This document shows, piece after piece, positions 4,063 through 37,040 of a stretch of DNA of 64,000 bases; positions within the stretch are counted from its first letter, which is position 1, and every line of letters starts with the position of its first letter. The translations under genes were made by a program, and so were the position numbers. The notes below the pieces were generated by a model that was given only the letters and a program-made list of their open reading frames with translations, was not told where the DNA came from and did no database searches. Origin of the DNA: Alphaproteobacteria bacterium (GTDB lineage Bacteria; Pseudomonadota; Alphaproteobacteria; Sphingomonadales; Sphingomonadaceae); the NCBI GenBank assembly GCA_005883305.1, contig VBAC01000001.1:1116001-1180000 (forward strand). The letters run 5' to 3'.

Positions 4063-5346
4063 ATGGCGGACACGGCCAGCCTCACCATCGGAGACCAGAG
4101 CTTCGATTATCCGACGCTGAAAGGGAGCGTCGGCCCCGAGGTGATCGATATCCGCAAGCTCTACGGCGAGACCGGGGCCTTTACTTACGATCCCGGCTTC
4201 ACCTCGACAGCGTCGTGCCAGAGCGACATCACCTATATCGACGGCGACGCGGGCATCCTCCTCCACCGCGGCTACCCGATCGACCAGCTGGCCGAGCAAT
4301 CGACCTTCATGGAGGTTGCCTATTTGCTTCTGAACGGCGAACTGCCGAAGAAGGAGGAGCTCGACAGATTCTCCTACACGATCTCGCGCCACACGATGCT
4401 TCACGAGCAGCTGGCGACCTTCTACCGCGGCTTCCGGCGCGACGCGCACCCGATGGCGATCATGTGCGGCGTGGTCGGGGCGCTCAGCGCCTTCTACCAC
4501 GATTCGACCGACATCACCGATCCCACGCAGCGGATGATCGCCTCCCACCGGCTGATCGCCAAGATGCCGACGATCGCGGCGATGGCCTACAAATATTCGA
4601 TCGGCCAGCCCTTCCTCTATCCCGACAACAGCCTCAGCTACACCGGCAACTTCCTGCGCATGACCTTCGGAGTCCCGGCCGAGCCCTACGAGGTCAATCC
4701 GGTGATCGAGAATGCGATGCGGCGGATCTTCATCCTCCACGCCGATCACGAGCAGAACGCCTCGACCTCGACCGTGCGCCTCGCCGGCTCCTCGGGCGCC
4801 AACCCGTTCGCCTGCATCGCTGCGGGGATCGCCTGCCTGTGGGGCCCGGCGCATGGCGGCGCCAACGAGGCGGCGCTCAACATGCTTCGCGAGATCGGCA
4901 GCGTGAAGCGAATCCCGGAATATATCGCCCGCGCCAAGGACAAGGACGATCCGTTCCGGCTGATGGGCTTCGGCCACCGGGTCTACAAGAATTTCGACCC
5001 GCGCGCGAAGGTGATGAAGGCCACCGCCGACGAGGTGCTGAAGGAGCTCAACATCTCCGATCCGGTGCTCGACGTCGCCAAGGAGCTCGAGCAAATCGCT
5101 CTCAGCGACGATTATTTCGTCGAGAAGAAGCTCTATCCGAACGTCGATTTCTACTCGGGCGTGATCCTCAACGCGATCGGCTTCCCGACCGACATGTTCA
5201 CCGCCCTCTTCGCGCTCGCCCGCACCGTCGGCTGGGTCGCGCAATGGAACGAGATGATCTCCGATCCCGACCAGAAGATCGGCCGCCCGCGCCAGCTCTA
5301 CACCGGCTCGCCCCAGCGCGATTACGTGCCGGTGGGGCAGCGGTAA
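4063..5346 (+). CDS. gltA: Citrate synthase (type II)
   Basis: 427 residues. Condenses oxaloacetate and acetyl-CoA to citrate, the entry step of the TCA cycle. The catalytic residues of the family are visible: the His in the [16 protein letters not shown] segment, the His in [14 protein letters not shown], and the Asp in [10 protein letters not shown]. Length and the N-terminal beta domain match the hexameric, NADH-regulated Gram-negative enzyme. It starts one base after gltX. A family 1 palindromic repeat follows the stop. Confidence 0.97.
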
Positions 5347-5369
5347 GGCCCGTTCACCTGATCGTTTCG

Positions 5370-5450
5370 TCGTTGCGAGGAGCGGAAGCGACGAAGCAAT
5401 CCAGCGGGCGACGAAGCCGTGTTGGATTGCTTCGCCACGCTCGCAATGAT
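5370..5450. repeat. Palindromic intergenic repeat, family 1
   Basis: Arms cgttgcgaggagcgg ... gaagcaatccag and ttggattgcttcg ... cgctcgcaatgat form a long imperfect hairpin between the convergent ends of gltA and the DUF3137 gene. It may act as a bidirectional transcript end. Related copies: 12996-13092 and 41280-41364. Confidence 0.75.
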
Positions 5451-30489: not shown

Positions 30490-32499
30490 TCATTCCGCAG
30501 CCTCGGCGTAGCTCTGACCGTGGAGCAGCTCGGCCGAGCAGCGTTGCAGCGTCGGCGAGGAGCGGGCGATCGGGTTGGTCAGGTAGAAATCCTGGATCGG
30601 GTAGGTGACCGCGGTGCCTTTGGCGATCTCGACCGCCTCCAGCTTGGGCGGCGCCCAGGGGAAGGTCACGAGACCCGGCCGGGCGAATTCCGGATGGTCG
30701 GCGAACAGGCGGCCGCGAAGCTCGGCGAAGCTGTCGAACGGCAGCGGCCGGCCGAGCACGTCGGAGAGCGCGCGGAAGATCGACCAGTCGGCGCGCGCGT
30801 CGCCGGGCGGATCGACCGCCTTCTCGCTATACTGCACCCTCCCCTCGAGGTTGACGTGTATGCCGTGCTTCTCGCTATAGGCGGCGCCGGGCAGGATCAC
30901 GTCCGCCGCGTGCGCGCCCTTGTCGCCGTGATGGCCGACATAGACCTTGAAGCTCTTCTCGAACGGGGCGAAGTCCATCTCGTCGGCGCCGAGCACGAAA
31001 AGCAGCTTCGGCGCGGCTTCGACAAGTGACGCCATGCCGCCAGGCTGCGCGTAGCCGAGGATCAGCCCGCCGGTCCGCGCAGCGGCGGTATGGAGGACAT
31101 TGAAGCCGTTCCAGCCCTCACGGACCAGGTTCAGGCTGTCGACCAGCGAGAGCGCGGCAGCCTGCCCGCCGGGCACCTTGAGCGCCGCGCCGCCGACGAT
31201 CACCGCGGGGCGCTGCGCCTGCCCCAGCGCCTCGGGCAGCTCGCCGAGCAGCGAGAGGTCGTTGCCGAGCCATTCGACGGGGTAAGTGAGATCGACCTCG
31301 GGGCCGATCGCGAACACCTTCGCCCCCGCCCTCACCGCCTTGCGGATCCGGGTGTTGACGAGGCTCGCCTCCCAGCGCGGATTGGTGCCGACGAGGAGGA
31401 TCGCGTCCGCCGTCTCGATGCGGGCGATGGTCGTGTTGAAATTGACCGCGCCGAGACTGGTCGTGTCGTAGGCGAGGCCGGTCTGGCGCCCCTCGATCAG
31501 GTCCGAACCTAGCGCTGCGACCAGCGCCTTGGCCGCGTACATCGTCTCGACGTCGACCAGATCGCCGGCGACGGCCGCGACGCTCGATTTGGCCGTCCTG
31601 GCCACCCCGGCGATGCGCTCGAACGCCTCGTCCCATGTCGCGGCGCGAAGCTTGCCGCCGTCGCGCACCCAGGGCCGGTCGAGCCGGTTGCGCAGCAACC
31701 CGTCCACCGCGTGCCGGGTCTTGTCCGACGCCCACTCCTCGTTCACATCTTCGTTGAGGCGGGGCAAGGCCCGCATCACCTCGCACTGGCGCGCGTCGAG
31801 GCGGATGTTGGTGCCGACCGCGTCCATCACGTCGATCGCCGGGATCTTGCGCAGCTCCCACGGGCGCGCTTCGAAGCTGTAGGGCTTGGAAACGAGCGCT
31901 CCGACCGGGCAGAGATCGACGACGTTGCCCGAAAGCTCGCTGGCCAAAGCGGTCTCCAGATAGGAGGTGATCTGCATGTCCTCGCCGCGGCCGATCGCGC
32001 CCATGTCCTCGACGCCGGCGACCTGCTCCATGAAGCGAACGCAGCGGGTGCAGTGGATGCAGCGGGTCATGAAGGTTTTCACGACCGGCCCCATATATTT
32101 CTCGGTCACCGCGCGCTTGTTCTCGTCGTAGCGGCTGTGGCCCTTGCCGTAGGCGAGCGCCTGGTCCTGAAGGTCGCATTCGCCGCCCTGGTCGCAGATC
32201 GGGCAATCGAGCGGATGGTTGATGAGGAGGAACTCCATCACGCCTTCGCGGGCCTTGCGGACCACCGGGGTGTTGGTGAAGATCTCCTGATTGTCCGCCG
32301 CGGGCAGCGCGCAGCTCGCCTGCGGCTTCGGCGGCCCCGGCTTCACCTCGACAAGGCACATCCGGCAATTGCCGGCGATGGCCAGCCGTTCGTGATAGCA
32401 GAAACGCGGAATCTCCTTGCCCGCCAGCTCGCACGCCTGAAGCACCGTCGCGCCCTGCGGCACTTCGATCTCGACACCGTCGACCTTGAGCTTGGGCAT
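30490..32499 (-). CDS. nuoG: NADH-quinone oxidoreductase subunit G
   Basis: 669 residues. The N-terminal ferredoxin-like domain binds several iron-sulfur clusters: CYHERLAIAGNCRMC for [2Fe-2S], HPLDCPICDQGGECDLQDQ for the His/Cys-ligated cluster, and RCIHCTRCVRF ... DLCPVGAL for [4Fe-4S]. The rest is a molybdopterin-oxidoreductase-like scaffold without an active site, shorter than in E. coli as usual for alphaproteobacteria. Upstream on the same strand, about 3 kb of secreted-protein genes separates it from nuoF. Confidence 0.96.
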   Translation of the reverse strand: MPKLKVDGVEIEVPQGATVLQACELAGKEIPRFCYHERLAIAGNCRMCLVEVKPGPPKPQASCALPAADNQEIFTNTPVVRKAREGVMEFLLINHPLDCPICDQGGECDLQDQALAYGKGHSRYDENKRAVTEKYMGPVVKTFMTRCIHCTRCVRFMEQVAGVEDMGAIGRGEDMQITSYLETALASELSGNVVDLCPVGALVSKPYSFEARPWELRKIPAIDVMDAVGTNIRLDARQCEVMRALPRLNEDVNEEWASDKTRHAVDGLLRNRLDRPWVRDGGKLRAATWDEAFERIAGVARTAKSSVAAVAGDLVDVETMYAAKALVAALGSDLIEGRQTGLAYDTTSLGAVNFNTTIARIETADAILLVGTNPRWEASLVNTRIRKAVRAGAKVFAIGPEVDLTYPVEWLGNDLSLLGELPEALGQAQRPAVIVGGAALKVPGGQAAALSLVDSLNLVREGWNGFNVLHTAAARTGGLILGYAQPGGMASLVEAAPKLLFVLGADEMDFAPFEKSFKVYVGHHGDKGAHAADVILPGAAYSEKHGIHVNLEGRVQYSEKAVDPPGDARADWSIFRALSDVLGRPLPFDSFAELRGRLFADHPEFARPGLVTFPWAPPKLEAVEIAKGTAVTYPIQDFYLTNPIARSSPTLQRCSAELLHGQSYAEAAE

Positions 32500-32649
32500 A
32501 GGAATTGCACTCGGGATTCAAACGCGCCCCCGAGGGGCCGCAGCCTGCGGTGCCGTTAGACGCTTACCCCCCCGCCGTTCAAGGGGCTGCGGGGGTTTTC
32601 GTTAATGGGGTTGGGGGGTCGTGGCGGCTGTCGCGGCGGCCGCCGCGGC

Positions 32650-33369
32650 CTAGGGCGAGCCCGGGCCGTCGCGCTGGACGACGGACCAGCGGTACAGCGC
32701 CTCGGCCAGGAAGCCGCGCATGAAACGGGGATCGTAGCTCAACCGGGGCGTGCCGGCCGGAGCGCAGGCCTGGAAATCGGGATGCAGCGCCGCCAGCGCG
32801 GCCGTTTCCTCAGGCGAGTGCGGCTCGGTCGCCAATACCGCTCGGGCCAGTTCCGGATGGCGCGGAGTCGCGCAATCGGCGAGGCCGTACATCGGCGCCA
32901 GCGCCACCGACATCGGATCGGCGGCATCGGCCGGCCGCGGCAGCGGCGCGGCGCCGACCGGCGGCGTCCTCACCGCCGCCTGCTGGGCGAATTGCGCTTC
33001 ATAGAGCGCTTCGGCGAAGGCCGCGCGCGCGCCGGTGGCCGAGGTCGAGAGCTGCTCGCGCATGGACAGGCAGCGCTGAGCCGTCCGCAACAGGGCCGCG
33101 GCCTGGGTTCTTTCCTCGGTCGAACGCGGCGTCGTCGACAGGAGAGCGGAAACTTGGGGTGCGCTCTGCCCGGCGGCGCAGGCCGCGGCGCGGAGCAGGT
33201 CGGCCGGCGATGTCGGCGTCTGCGCCGGCGCCGGAGTGCCCGGGGTCGGGTTCGAGCGCGGCGTCTGCGGAGGCGGCGGCGGCGCGCTTCCATATTGGGC
33301 GGCGGCGGCGGTGATGGGAAGCGCGGCCAGCAGGCTCGCGCAAAGAGACAAAGACAGCGCCTTTTTCAT
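32650..33369 (-). CDS. Secreted two-repeat Cys protein, copy 4 of the nuoF-nuoG array
   Basis: 239 residues. A signal peptide (1-23) is followed by a Pro/Thr-rich linker (about 28-55) and two copies of a roughly 60-residue unit. In the unit a Cys is followed exactly 36 residues later by a second Cys, then a motif like LAEALYR. Here the pairs are C64/C100 and C166/C202, and the closing motifs are FAEALYE and LAEALYR. Between the cysteines both units share the pattern VxALLxTxPxSxEE. I recognise no named family. The even cysteine spacing suggests one disulfide per unit. The 150 bases after the stop, before nuoG, hold no gene I can support. ATG 33369 has GGAG upstream. Confidence 0.65.
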   Translation of the reverse strand: MKKALSLSLCASLLAALPITAAAAQYGSAPPPPPQTPRSNPTPGTPAPAQTPTSPADLLRAAACAAGQSAPQVSALLSTTPRSTEERTQAAALLRTAQRCLSMREQLSTSATGARAAFAEALYEAQFAQQAAVRTPPVGAAPLPRPADAADPMSVALAPMYGLADCATPRHPELARAVLATEPHSPEETAALAALHPDFQACAPAGTPRLSYDPRFMRGFLAEALYRWSVVQRDGPGSP

Positions 33370-33407
33370 TTCATGCTCCGCAAAAAATGCCCCCTCGATG
33401 GAGCGCG

Positions 33408-34046
33408 TCACTCAGTTCGGAACACTTCCGGCCGGCCGGCGGCGGCGCGATAAGCCGCTTCCGCGAGGAAGGCGCGGAAGACCTGCGGGCTGAGATCGAT
33501 ATTCTCGCCCTGGCCGACGCAAGCCGACAGGGCCGGCATCAGGCTTTCGATCGCCCCACGCTCGGCGGCGCTGCCGCGCGGCGTGCGGAAGAAGGCGTAG
33601 CTTCGCTCCGGATCGGCCCTCACCACGCACGATGCCATGCCCAGCATCGACAACGCGGCGCGCGCAGATTCGTCGGCATAGCGGACATAATAGCTGCTGA
33701 CCGGCTCGAAGACCCGTGCGGGACGGCCGCGCGGACGGGCGCCGATCGCTTCGAAATCGCGGTAGAGCAGCCGTTCGGCCACCGCGCCCCGGTTGTAGAA
33801 GGACGCGGCCGGAACCTGCGTGCCCGTGGCGCGGCAGGCATAGACTCCTCCGGCTACCCAGGGCGCGTCCGCGTCTATCGTGCCGGGCACGGTCGAGAGC
33901 ACTCTTTCCATGTTCCGGCTGCCGCGCTGCATCAGGCAGTCGACCACGGCGTAGACATTGTCGATCGACGGCTGGGCCGGCTCGGCATAAGCCGGTGTGC
34001 CGAGCGCCGAAACCGCCAATGAAAGCGCGAGAGCCGTGCGGATCAT
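33408..34046 (-). CDS. Secreted two-repeat Cys protein, copy 3 of the nuoF-nuoG array
   Basis: 212 residues with a signal peptide (1-21, ending TPAYA). Two units are visible: C37/C71 (34 apart, slightly shortened) and C140/C176 (36 apart). The closing motifs are VAERLLY and LAEAAYR. The first unit keeps VLSTVPGT, the second has FFRTPRGSAAE where others have LLxTxPxSxEE. It is the most diverged member. No enzyme motif is visible. 38 bases separate its stop from the start of copy 4. Confidence 0.6.
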   Translation of the reverse strand: MIRTALALSLAVSALGTPAYAEPAQPSIDNVYAVVDCLMQRGSRNMERVLSTVPGTIDADAPWVAGGVYACRATGTQVPAASFYNRGAVAERLLYRDFEAIGARPRGRPARVFEPVSSYYVRYADESARAALSMLGMASCVVRADPERSYAFFRTPRGSAAERGAIESLMPALSACVGQGENIDLSPQVFRAFLAEAAYRAAAGRPEVFRTE

Positions 34047-34102
34047 CCCCGCACTATTTCACTTTGCGGCGGAGCCGTAAAGCACCCGCGTTCACGCCCA
34101 AT

Positions 34103-34750
34103 CTATGACCCCGCAGCAGCGGACCGCGTTGCCGGCGCGCGATTATGCTCCGCTAGGCGATACGCGGCGAGCCCCAGCATCGCCCGAAGCGCGATTCCGT
34201 TGAGGCTGAGCCTGACGCCCGCGGCGAGGCAGGATTGCGCCTCGGGCGTGAGCGCGCGCAGAGCGCCGGCTTCCTCCGCGCTGAACGGCCGGGTCGCAAG
34301 CAGGGCGGAGACCTTTTGCGGCGCTGCCCGCACGGCGCACAGCGCCATGGCTTCCTGCTCGCTCCGCGCCGCGAGCGGCGGGCGAGCAGGATCATAGGCG
34401 ACCTGCGTGGCGAGGTCGGCGCCGTGGGCGTCCAGAAGCAGCAATTGCTCCGCCAGATCGCCCGCGAAGGGCAGCCGGCTGAAGCCGAGCCGATGGCCCT
34501 GAGGCACGCACTGCCAATAGCTCTGGGCGAAAGTCCGGATGCGGTCCTGGTATTCGTCGCTGGTGAAATCCATGGCGAGGAGCGCTCGGGCGCGTCCGGG
34601 GGCCCGGATGATAACGCAGCGGGCGAAATCATGCAGCGTCCGCGCGGCCTCGGCGGTCGTGACTTCCCTGCCGAGTAGGATCCGCCGCTGAGCCTCCGCC
34701 GTGCCGACGCAGGCGAGCGCCAGCAACATCATCAAAAATTTGAGTTTCAC
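34103..34750 (-). CDS. Secreted two-repeat Cys protein, copy 2 of the nuoF-nuoG array
   Basis: 215 residues. Signal peptide MKLKFLMMLLALACVGTAEA; the mature protein starts near Gln21. Units: C45/C81 and C138/C174, both 36 apart. The inner patterns are RARALLAMDFTSDE and VSALLATRPFSAEE. The closing motifs are DLAEQLLLL and MLGLAAYRLA. I start at GTG 34750, which gives a clean signal peptide; TTG 34762 is the alternative. 56 bases separate it from copy 3. Confidence 0.6.
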   Translation of the reverse strand: MKLKFLMMLLALACVGTAEAQRRILLGREVTTAEAARTLHDFARCVIIRAPGRARALLAMDFTSDEYQDRIRTFAQSYWQCVPQGHRLGFSRLPFAGDLAEQLLLLDAHGADLATQVAYDPARPPLAARSEQEAMALCAVRAAPQKVSALLATRPFSAEEAGALRALTPEAQSCLAAGVRLSLNGIALRAMLGLAAYRLAEHNRAPATRSAAAGS

Positions 34751-34848
34751 TGCTGCCCCCAATTGCCGTCAGATTATGCATCAATTCCAGATAGATGCAA
34801 GATAGCGGCAATCGCACCCGGGGCAGGTAAGGCCGCAGTCCGGCCGAG

Positions 34849-35517
34849 TCAGCGCCCTGAGGTCGCCTCGCCCTCGCGCGAAAAATGGTAGAGCGCCTCG
34901 GCGAGCAGGGCCCGCATGACGTGCCGGGTTGCGGGAAGTGAAACGTCCGGCGGAAGGCATTCCAGCAGGATCGGGCGCAGCTGCGCCAGGACACGCGTTT
35001 CGCCGGGCGAATCGTGATCGAAGCGGATCATGGCGTGAACCTGATCGGGTGCGCGATGGACCGCGCAAGTCGCGACCCGGTGGGGAAGCGGGACGTATTC
35101 GGGCGGGGCCGCGGGCTCAGGGCGCGCCTCGTAATGGCGCGATTCCGGAATCGAGCGGTTGTGGAGGAACTCGGCGGCCAGGCCGCGGAGCAGGATCATT
35201 CCCCCCGCGCCGCGGAAATGGATGTCGCTGCGCGTCGCGCAGTCGTTCACCTGCCCGGTCAACGTCAGCGCATGGGCAGCCGCATTTTCCTCCGCGCTGC
35301 CGGGGCTGGTCTCAAGCAGCGCTTCGGCTTCGGCCCTGCGCACCCTCACGCTGCAATAAGCGAAAGCGCGCAGGATCCGGTCCTCCATGCTCCCTTCCGC
35401 CAGATGCGATTGCGCCCAGGTCGGAAGGCGCGGATCGGCCGGCTCGCGCGCCGCGATCGGCGACGCGGACGCGAGGCACGCGGCGGCCAGCGCCATCATC
35501 CTGATTCCGAGATTCAC
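34849..35517 (-). CDS. Secreted two-repeat Cys protein, copy 1 of the nuoF-nuoG array
   Basis: 222 residues with a signal peptide (1-23, ending SPIAA). Units: C55/C93 (38 apart) and C151/C187 (36 apart). The inner patterns are AEALLETSPGSAEE and VHAMIRFDHDSPGE. The closing motifs are GLAAEFLHN and LLAEALYHFS. It is the first of four consecutive relatives and begins 70 bases after nuoF. The array sits in the nuo operon and shares its strand, so it is probably transcribed with complex I. The proteins would be periplasmic, opposite the peripheral arm, so a direct catalytic role in complex I is unlikely. Confidence 0.62.
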   Translation of the reverse strand: MNLGIRMMALAAACLASASPIAAREPADPRLPTWAQSHLAEGSMEDRILRAFAYCSVRVRRAEAEALLETSPGSAEENAAAHALTLTGQVNDCATRSDIHFRGAGGMILLRGLAAEFLHNRSIPESRHYEARPEPAAPPEYVPLPHRVATCAVHRAPDQVHAMIRFDHDSPGETRVLAQLRPILLECLPPDVSLPATRHVMRALLAEALYHFSREGEATSGR

Positions 35518-35587
35518 TCACGCCCCCTGCCCTGCCAAGAGCGGCAGGTTCGCACCCCTTCCAGCAGCTTGCAAGGCGCGACGGCTG

Positions 35588-36872
<1,285 letters not shown>

Positions 36873-36880
<8 letters not shown>

Positions 36881-37040
36881 GGCCGCCGCCCTTCTTGAGG
36901 GCCATGAAGATGGCGATTGCGATGGCGAGGCCGATGCCGATCGCTACCAGCTTGAGCGCCGCGCCGAGCAGCTTCAGAGCGAGGATGAAGGCGATGATCC
37001 CGACGACGATCGCGCCGAGGGAGGACAGACCCTGCTTCAT
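36873..37040 (-). CDS. Small membrane protein between nuoE and nuoF
   Basis: 55 residues: [13 protein letters not shown], then an almost continuous hydrophobic stretch that could form two short helices with a Lys between them, ending in the basic LKKGGGRA. The ATG overlaps the nuoE stop by four bases and its stop overlaps nuoF by eight, a packing typical of real co-translated genes. No homologous family recognised. Confidence 0.55.

Follow-up and report, generated by a model that had tools for sequence, protein, structure and literature searches.

Predicted exported two-unit cysteine proteins encoded in a variable slot between nuoF and nuoG of Sphingomonadaceae

Four related genes between nuoF and nuoG

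The window analysed here is a stretch of 64,000 nucleotides from an Alphaproteobacteria bacterium of the Sphingomonadaceae (contig VBAC01000001.1 of assembly GCA_005883305.1, positions 1,116,001 to 1,180,000), and our subject is a set of four consecutive genes that it carries between the complex I genes nuoF and nuoG. They belong to a protein family that is undescribed and has no name in the libraries searched. The order on the minus strand is nuoF (35588..36880), family genes 1, 2, 3 and 4, and nuoG (30490..32499). Both flanks were taken from the open reading frame (ORF) list; NuoF is 74–92% identical to the NuoF matches in the loci of relatives, and a search of 28 genomes for nuoG gave a single match per genome. 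Gene 1 (34849..35517) and gene 2 (34103..34750) start with GTG and encode 222 and 215 amino acids, gene 3 (33408..34046) encodes 212, and gene 4 (32650..33369) encodes 239, with a proline-rich tail after the predicted signal peptide and with the ATG at 33369 preferred as its start over an upstream GTG at 33411. An earlier note on this DNA had described four consecutive genes for proteins of 212–239 residues at this place, and the ORF coordinates agree. From nuoF through genes 1–4 to nuoG the intergenic gaps measure 70, 98, 56, 38 and 150 bases, so that no genes overlap in the window. The G+C content at codon position 3 is 0.80–0.84 in the four genes and exceeds that at positions 1 and 2, a pattern shared by nuoF and nuoG, where position 3 reaches 0.90.

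All four proteins are predicted to carry a signal peptide, as the note had proposed; the peptides were called with a hydrophobicity script and no dedicated predictor. Each protein is built from two units with one pair of cysteines per unit. The units lie at 35134..35397 and 34852..35109 in gene 1 (cysteines 38 and 36 residues apart), 34403..34660 and 34124..34381 in gene 2 (36 and 36), 33729..33980 and 33414..33671 in gene 3 (34 and 36), and 32965..33222 and 32659..32916 in gene 4 (36 and 36), which reproduces the distance of 36 reported for six of the eight units. In a four-way alignment, proteins 2–4 are 27–33% identical to protein 1. Gene 1 matches the family profile with E 1e-45 (the profile was built with gene 1 included), and a profile search of the window's own genome up to E 10 recovers the four window members only. 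The closest named relatives of the window NuoG come from two Sphingosinicella strains and one Sphingomonadales assembly (82–84% identity).

A family of two helical units

For the family as a whole, 104 sequences were gathered from relatives (the 23 carriers among 60 genomes in a first search) and from 80 named loci, and eight were removed for being shorter than 170 residues or identical over the last 120, leaving 96 full-length members. Four cysteines are present in all 96, and 93 have no further cysteine beyond residue 25. Spacing is almost rigid in the second pair (36 residues in 94 members and 37 in the other two) and varies between 30 and 43 in the first, where 42 of the 96 have a distance of 36. 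Two 48-member alignments, with the four window proteins and the members from two genomes common to both, have a mean column identity of 23%, and the only invariant columns are the cysteines and the initial methionine. When profiles of unit 1 and unit 2 from the 96 members were compared with hhalign, they matched with a probability of 99.3 and E 2.4e-20, against a probability of 1.6 for the reversed control. The build from two related units, which the note had read from four proteins, thus extends to the family. A shared profile recovers 51 ORFs in 45 sequences in the first round and is stable through rounds 2–4; the 45 sequences are the window, 31 loci with hits and 13 further nuo loci, and the search found no family ORF in these 13. 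The 80 named loci contain 53 family ORFs.

Two members are predicted to consist of a single unit (126 and 139 residues), each with one mature cysteine pair 36 residues apart. Their existence suggests that the unit can stand alone, and pairing of the cysteines within a unit is then the simplest reading. Together with the cysteines retained in 96 of 96 members, this supports the earlier proposal that each unit could hold one disulfide, which would probably close it. Structure prediction with AlphaFold2 gave a confident, all-helical model of the mature gene 2 protein with two four-helix units (predicted local distance difference test score, pLDDT, 91.8; predicted template modelling score, pTM, 0.87), and unit 2 of gene 2 modelled alone has the same four helices as in the full model (pLDDT 94.3, pTM 0.83); the assessment uses the pLDDT and pTM scores only, not the coordinates. 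Judged from the alignments, the conserved positions besides the cysteines look like helix caps and core, and no catalytic motif was noticed in the two 48-member alignments.

Two features near the mature N-terminus were seen in subsets of the family. A motif resembling T/I-G-S/T-R/H-I/L follows the signal peptide in 15 of the 96 members, compared with a mean of 0.16 and a maximum of 3 in shuffles, a comparison to be read with the motif having been picked post hoc and the members being related. In addition, the loci L235, L236 and L237 form a distant branch away from nuo, with proteins of mostly 270–300 residues and some uncertain predicted starts, and in several of its members the signal peptide is followed by an IVVTG-like stretch, which resembles the TonB-box regions of outer-membrane receptors.

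Searches for known relatives in Pfam, NCBIfam, PHROGs, PADLOC and the Protein Data Bank (PDB) returned isolated weak matches or none, and membership in a known family was rejected on this basis. The four window proteins have no match in Pfam, and 48 members searched up to E 0.1 gave five hits, each of a single member to a different family (best E 0.011), none convincingly. NCBIfam gave a single match for the window proteins (gene 4, E 1.3) and, for 48 members, six families with one member each, the best of which (RlmH, E 0.0012) is taken as chance. For the four window proteins, PHROGs gave two weak matches, both of gene 4 (E 0.16 and 0.4), and PADLOC none up to E 1. Two sequence searches of the PDB with four sequences each found nothing significant (best E 0.79, GGA proteins). 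Foldseek placed none of 45 matches of the two-unit model and none of 26 matches of the one-unit model against the PDB at E 0.001 (best E 1.4 and 5.6, respectively), and none of 42 matches to viral models was significant; short all-helix folds are hard for Foldseek to rank. Five of the 26 one-unit rows are chains of complex I or respirasomes (E 6.2–9.8, template modelling score ~0.3), which we presume from their chain naming to be of the NDUFA5 type; we count these rows, copies of one small helical protein, as chance. An origin as phage or plasmid cargo was also considered and set aside, gene 4 having no match in phages and gene 2 none in plasmids, each search having been run with that one gene. 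The literature searched holds no description of the family, in line with the note, which knew of no described function. An excerpt of PMC2241609 lists sphingomonad-specific proteins by accession, and this list lies outside the comparisons behind the family's novelty.

The general build of the proteins invites comparison with small exported helical proteins that contain a disulfide, such as the HdeA-like acid chaperones and the periplasmic immunity proteins Tai4 and Rap. A helical disulfide scaffold with fast-changing surfaces, present in diverged copies against different foreign effectors, would be expected if the family consisted of periplasmic immunity or inhibitor proteins, and the strong divergence (23% mean column identity, with only the cysteines and the first methionine invariant) fits this idea, as do the age of the paralogues and their frequent gain and loss, described below. 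We nevertheless regard it as quite unlikely: the five weak Pfam matches among the 48 members are all to other families, neither PADLOC nor Foldseek provided a match, the two-unit build sets the family apart from HdeA, Tai4 and Rap, and no toxin gene was noticed beside the copies away from nuo, among the neighbours listed, which were not searched against a library.

Distribution and the nuoF–nuoG slot

Almost all carriers come from a single bacterial family, the Sphingomonadaceae by the names of the members. A profile search of relatives, as the note had suggested, recovered the protein family in 169 of 397 genomes of this bacterial family and in 60 of 96 genera; when only the 360 genomes with completeness of 90% or more and contamination of 5% or less are counted, 161 have a match. 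A sample of the order, which overlaps the 397 genomes, has matches in 80 of 246 genomes, all of the same bacterial family, and 24 genomes of seven other families of the order had no match to the first, weaker profile. At the level of the class, five of 337 genomes match, four of them from the same bacterial family. The sole match of the class sample outside it (G634:C3:2059-2223, E 4e-5) is short and weak, covering 55 profile positions in a 550-residue open frame.

The place of the genes is largely constant. We searched for nuoG in 80 carrier genomes of 38 genera, comprising 71 taken in list order and nine added, mostly with many or distant copies, and leaving out genomes examined earlier. In 76 of the 80, nuoG is preceded on its own strand by a family member within the limit of 6 kb, at a gap of at most 305 bases in 74 of the 76 and of 702 and 2599 bases in the other two; the four carriers with no member at nuoG are G434, G346, G077 and G092. 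Among the matches listed, 119 of 140 members are at the nuoG site and 21 elsewhere. Likewise, 21 of the 23 carriers of the first relatives search, the window's own genome included, have a member at nuo, the exceptions being G003 and G012. The members away from nuo appear, among the neighbours listed, to lie near genes for ATP synthase, peptidyl-tRNA hydrolase and LptF/G-like proteins, among others. Two such copies (L058 7290-7919 and L238 ~4840-5436) are found about 1–3 kb upstream of putative F1 ATP synthase genes.

Comparison of the spacing between nuoF and nuoG across relatives, also suggested by the note, reveals that this junction is a variable slot that is closed, filled by the family or filled by unrelated short inserts. 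Of the 77 named loci in which both flanks are present, 33 contain family genes and 12 contain other short inserts, which have no similarity to the family better than E 0.1; in the remaining 32, nuoF and nuoG are adjacent, and 28 of these pairs overlap by one base. Gaps of at least 500 bases are found at nuoF–nuoG in 34 of 77 loci, compared with three of 73 at nuoE–nuoF and none of 78 at nuoG–nuoH. Insert-bearing loci include L107 (7850-8400), L106 (8030-8660), L146, L150, L160, L162, L167 and L172, and further ones are L174, L177, L194, L201, L203 and L216. By sequence, the inserts look like coiled-coil, small membrane, retropepsin-like or exported proteins, the insert pair in L107 being presumably DUF4160 and DUF2442, and those of L146 and part of L162 look like short repeats rather than genes. 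In the neighbouring nuoE–nuoF gap, the window has a small hydrophobic frame of ~55 residues (~36873-37040, minus strand), and the gap is often 150–190 bases long in 73 named loci, so that this frame may be conserved.

On a NuoG tree of 77 rows, the presence of the family needs 18 changes on the best tree, 14 of them forced by supported branches, and shuffled labels need 25.2 on average, with only one of 500 shuffles as low as the observed 18. Presence thus partly follows descent, and yet it changes often. With nuoF and nuoG both conserved, recombination within these flanks is a likely way for the cargo to be exchanged. The note had also concluded that the family was expanded by duplication. 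Duplication itself is upheld, but the events are mostly old: for 50 of the 55 members of multi-member loci, including all four from the window, the best match is found in a different genome, and a recent tandem duplication in the window genome was rejected on this ground.

Patchy presence with many gains or losses is also what would be expected of inert passengers heading for loss, with no function of their own. We consider this highly improbable, given the four cysteines with fixed spacing in 96 of 96 members, the presence in 60 of 96 genera and a nonsynonymous substitution rate (dN) clearly below the synonymous rate (dS) in the three closest pairs. The dN/dS ratios of ~0.22, 0.14 and 0.29, obtained without a nuo gene as reference, suggest that the proteins are kept by selection.

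Two proposed readings: cargo of the nuo operon or accessory proteins of complex I

How closely the family is tied to its flanks can be seen from the codons at the borders of the slot. In 26 of 33 loci the stop of nuoF and the start of the first family gene overlap by 4 bases, and in 12 of 35 the stop of the last family gene overlaps the start of nuoG, with the starts of the family genes chosen by script. No promoter-like site was predicted in 32400-35700, and the two terminator-like sites found there compare with 2.5 expected by chance; one of the two is on the minus strand between genes 3 and 4 (33404-33389) and, if real, would argue against a single transcript. The conserved synteny and the overlapping codons support the notion, already put forward in the note, that the family rides on the complex I transcript.

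Based on these observations, we hypothesize that the proteins are exported, have a binding or scaffold role, are encoded by cargo genes coupled to the nuo transcript and are not fixed complex I subunits, a reading to which we give an even chance. The slot would be a cargo site of a strongly expressed operon, the content of which is often exchanged or lost. Family genes residing there would be translated from the nuo transcript in step with their two flanking genes, their products would be exported from the cytoplasm, a disulfide would form in each unit, and the variable surface would bind a partner in the periplasm or cell envelope. In this way, the amount of the envelope proteins would be tied to complex I. 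Several points weigh against this hypothesis. A pure cargo slot alone leaves the constancy at one junction, seen in 76 of 80 carriers, unexplained; Foldseek found no fold relative from which a function could be read; and the dN/dS ratios lack a nuo gene for comparison.

The main alternative, which we regard as possible but doubtful, places the proteins in the periplasm as accessory subunits or assembly factors of complex I that bind its membrane arm from outside and are co-transcribed with the enzyme. It would account for the constant place in the operon across 38 genera and for the start and stop codons that overlap with nuoF and nuoG. Extra reading frames are known from the nuo clusters of Paracoccus and Rhodobacter, and these resemble the family in being unassigned genes among nuo genes. 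In mitochondria, the intermembrane-space CHCH subunits (NDUFS5, NDUFA8 and others) are small helical proteins with conserved cysteine pairs that are tied to complex I. They have twin CX9C motifs, whereas the family has one pair per unit with spacings of 30–43 and 36–37, and neither a sequence nor a fold match to them was found. Furthermore, as far as excerpts of two reports go, some alphaproteobacterial complex I enzymes have supernumerary subunits (PMC11522691, PMC12361115), which in Paracoccus denitrificans are NDUFS4, NDUFS6, NDUFA12 and CI-PIMT (PMC11522691). As the family might be, these are extra complex I proteins of some lineages; however, the 48 members have no Pfam match to such families, and with its predicted signal peptides the family would sit across the membrane from them.

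We also asked whether any alignment column of NuoE, F, G, H or L varies with the presence of the family, using 62 named loci of which 25 carry it. The strongest association was with a gap in a histidine-rich loop of NuoL (Fisher p 2.1e-6, uncorrected for relatedness). This His/Asp-rich loop (consensus residues 445–477; 23–62 residues in the aligned region) tends to be shorter in carriers. In 13 independent pairs the direction is kept, but the trend is not significant (median p 0.219, 0.125 and 0.25 at three thresholds), and the loop is presumably cytoplasmic. The cytoplasmic arm is also what nuoF and nuoG are established to encode. In addition, 228 of the 397 genomes have no match to the family, and all 28 genomes searched for nuoG have it, whether or not they carry the family; lineage-specific subunits need not, however, occur wherever that type of complex I occurs. 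Finally, 21 of the 140 members, among the matches listed, lie away from nuo, and unrelated inserts occupy the same slot, which weakens the inference that the family proteins serve complex I. A bolder version of this alternative, which we think rather unlikely, is that of a periplasmic complex I module born in the sphingomonads that docks on the outer face of the membrane arm and whose paralogues are swapped as a coupled nuoF–nuoG cassette. Such a module would be the bacterial counterpart of the subunits that complex I of mitochondria has in the intermembrane space.

The novelty concerns the protein family, and unnamed lineage-confined families of unknown function are themselves not rare. This one is found in 60 of the 96 genera sampled, is nameless in the libraries searched and gave no fold relative in the searches made. 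Should its proteins serve complex I, a bacterial enzyme would have an accessory module on its outer face; if they do not, the nuoF–nuoG junction would be a cargo slot in a core respiratory operon in which the codons of flank and cargo overlap.

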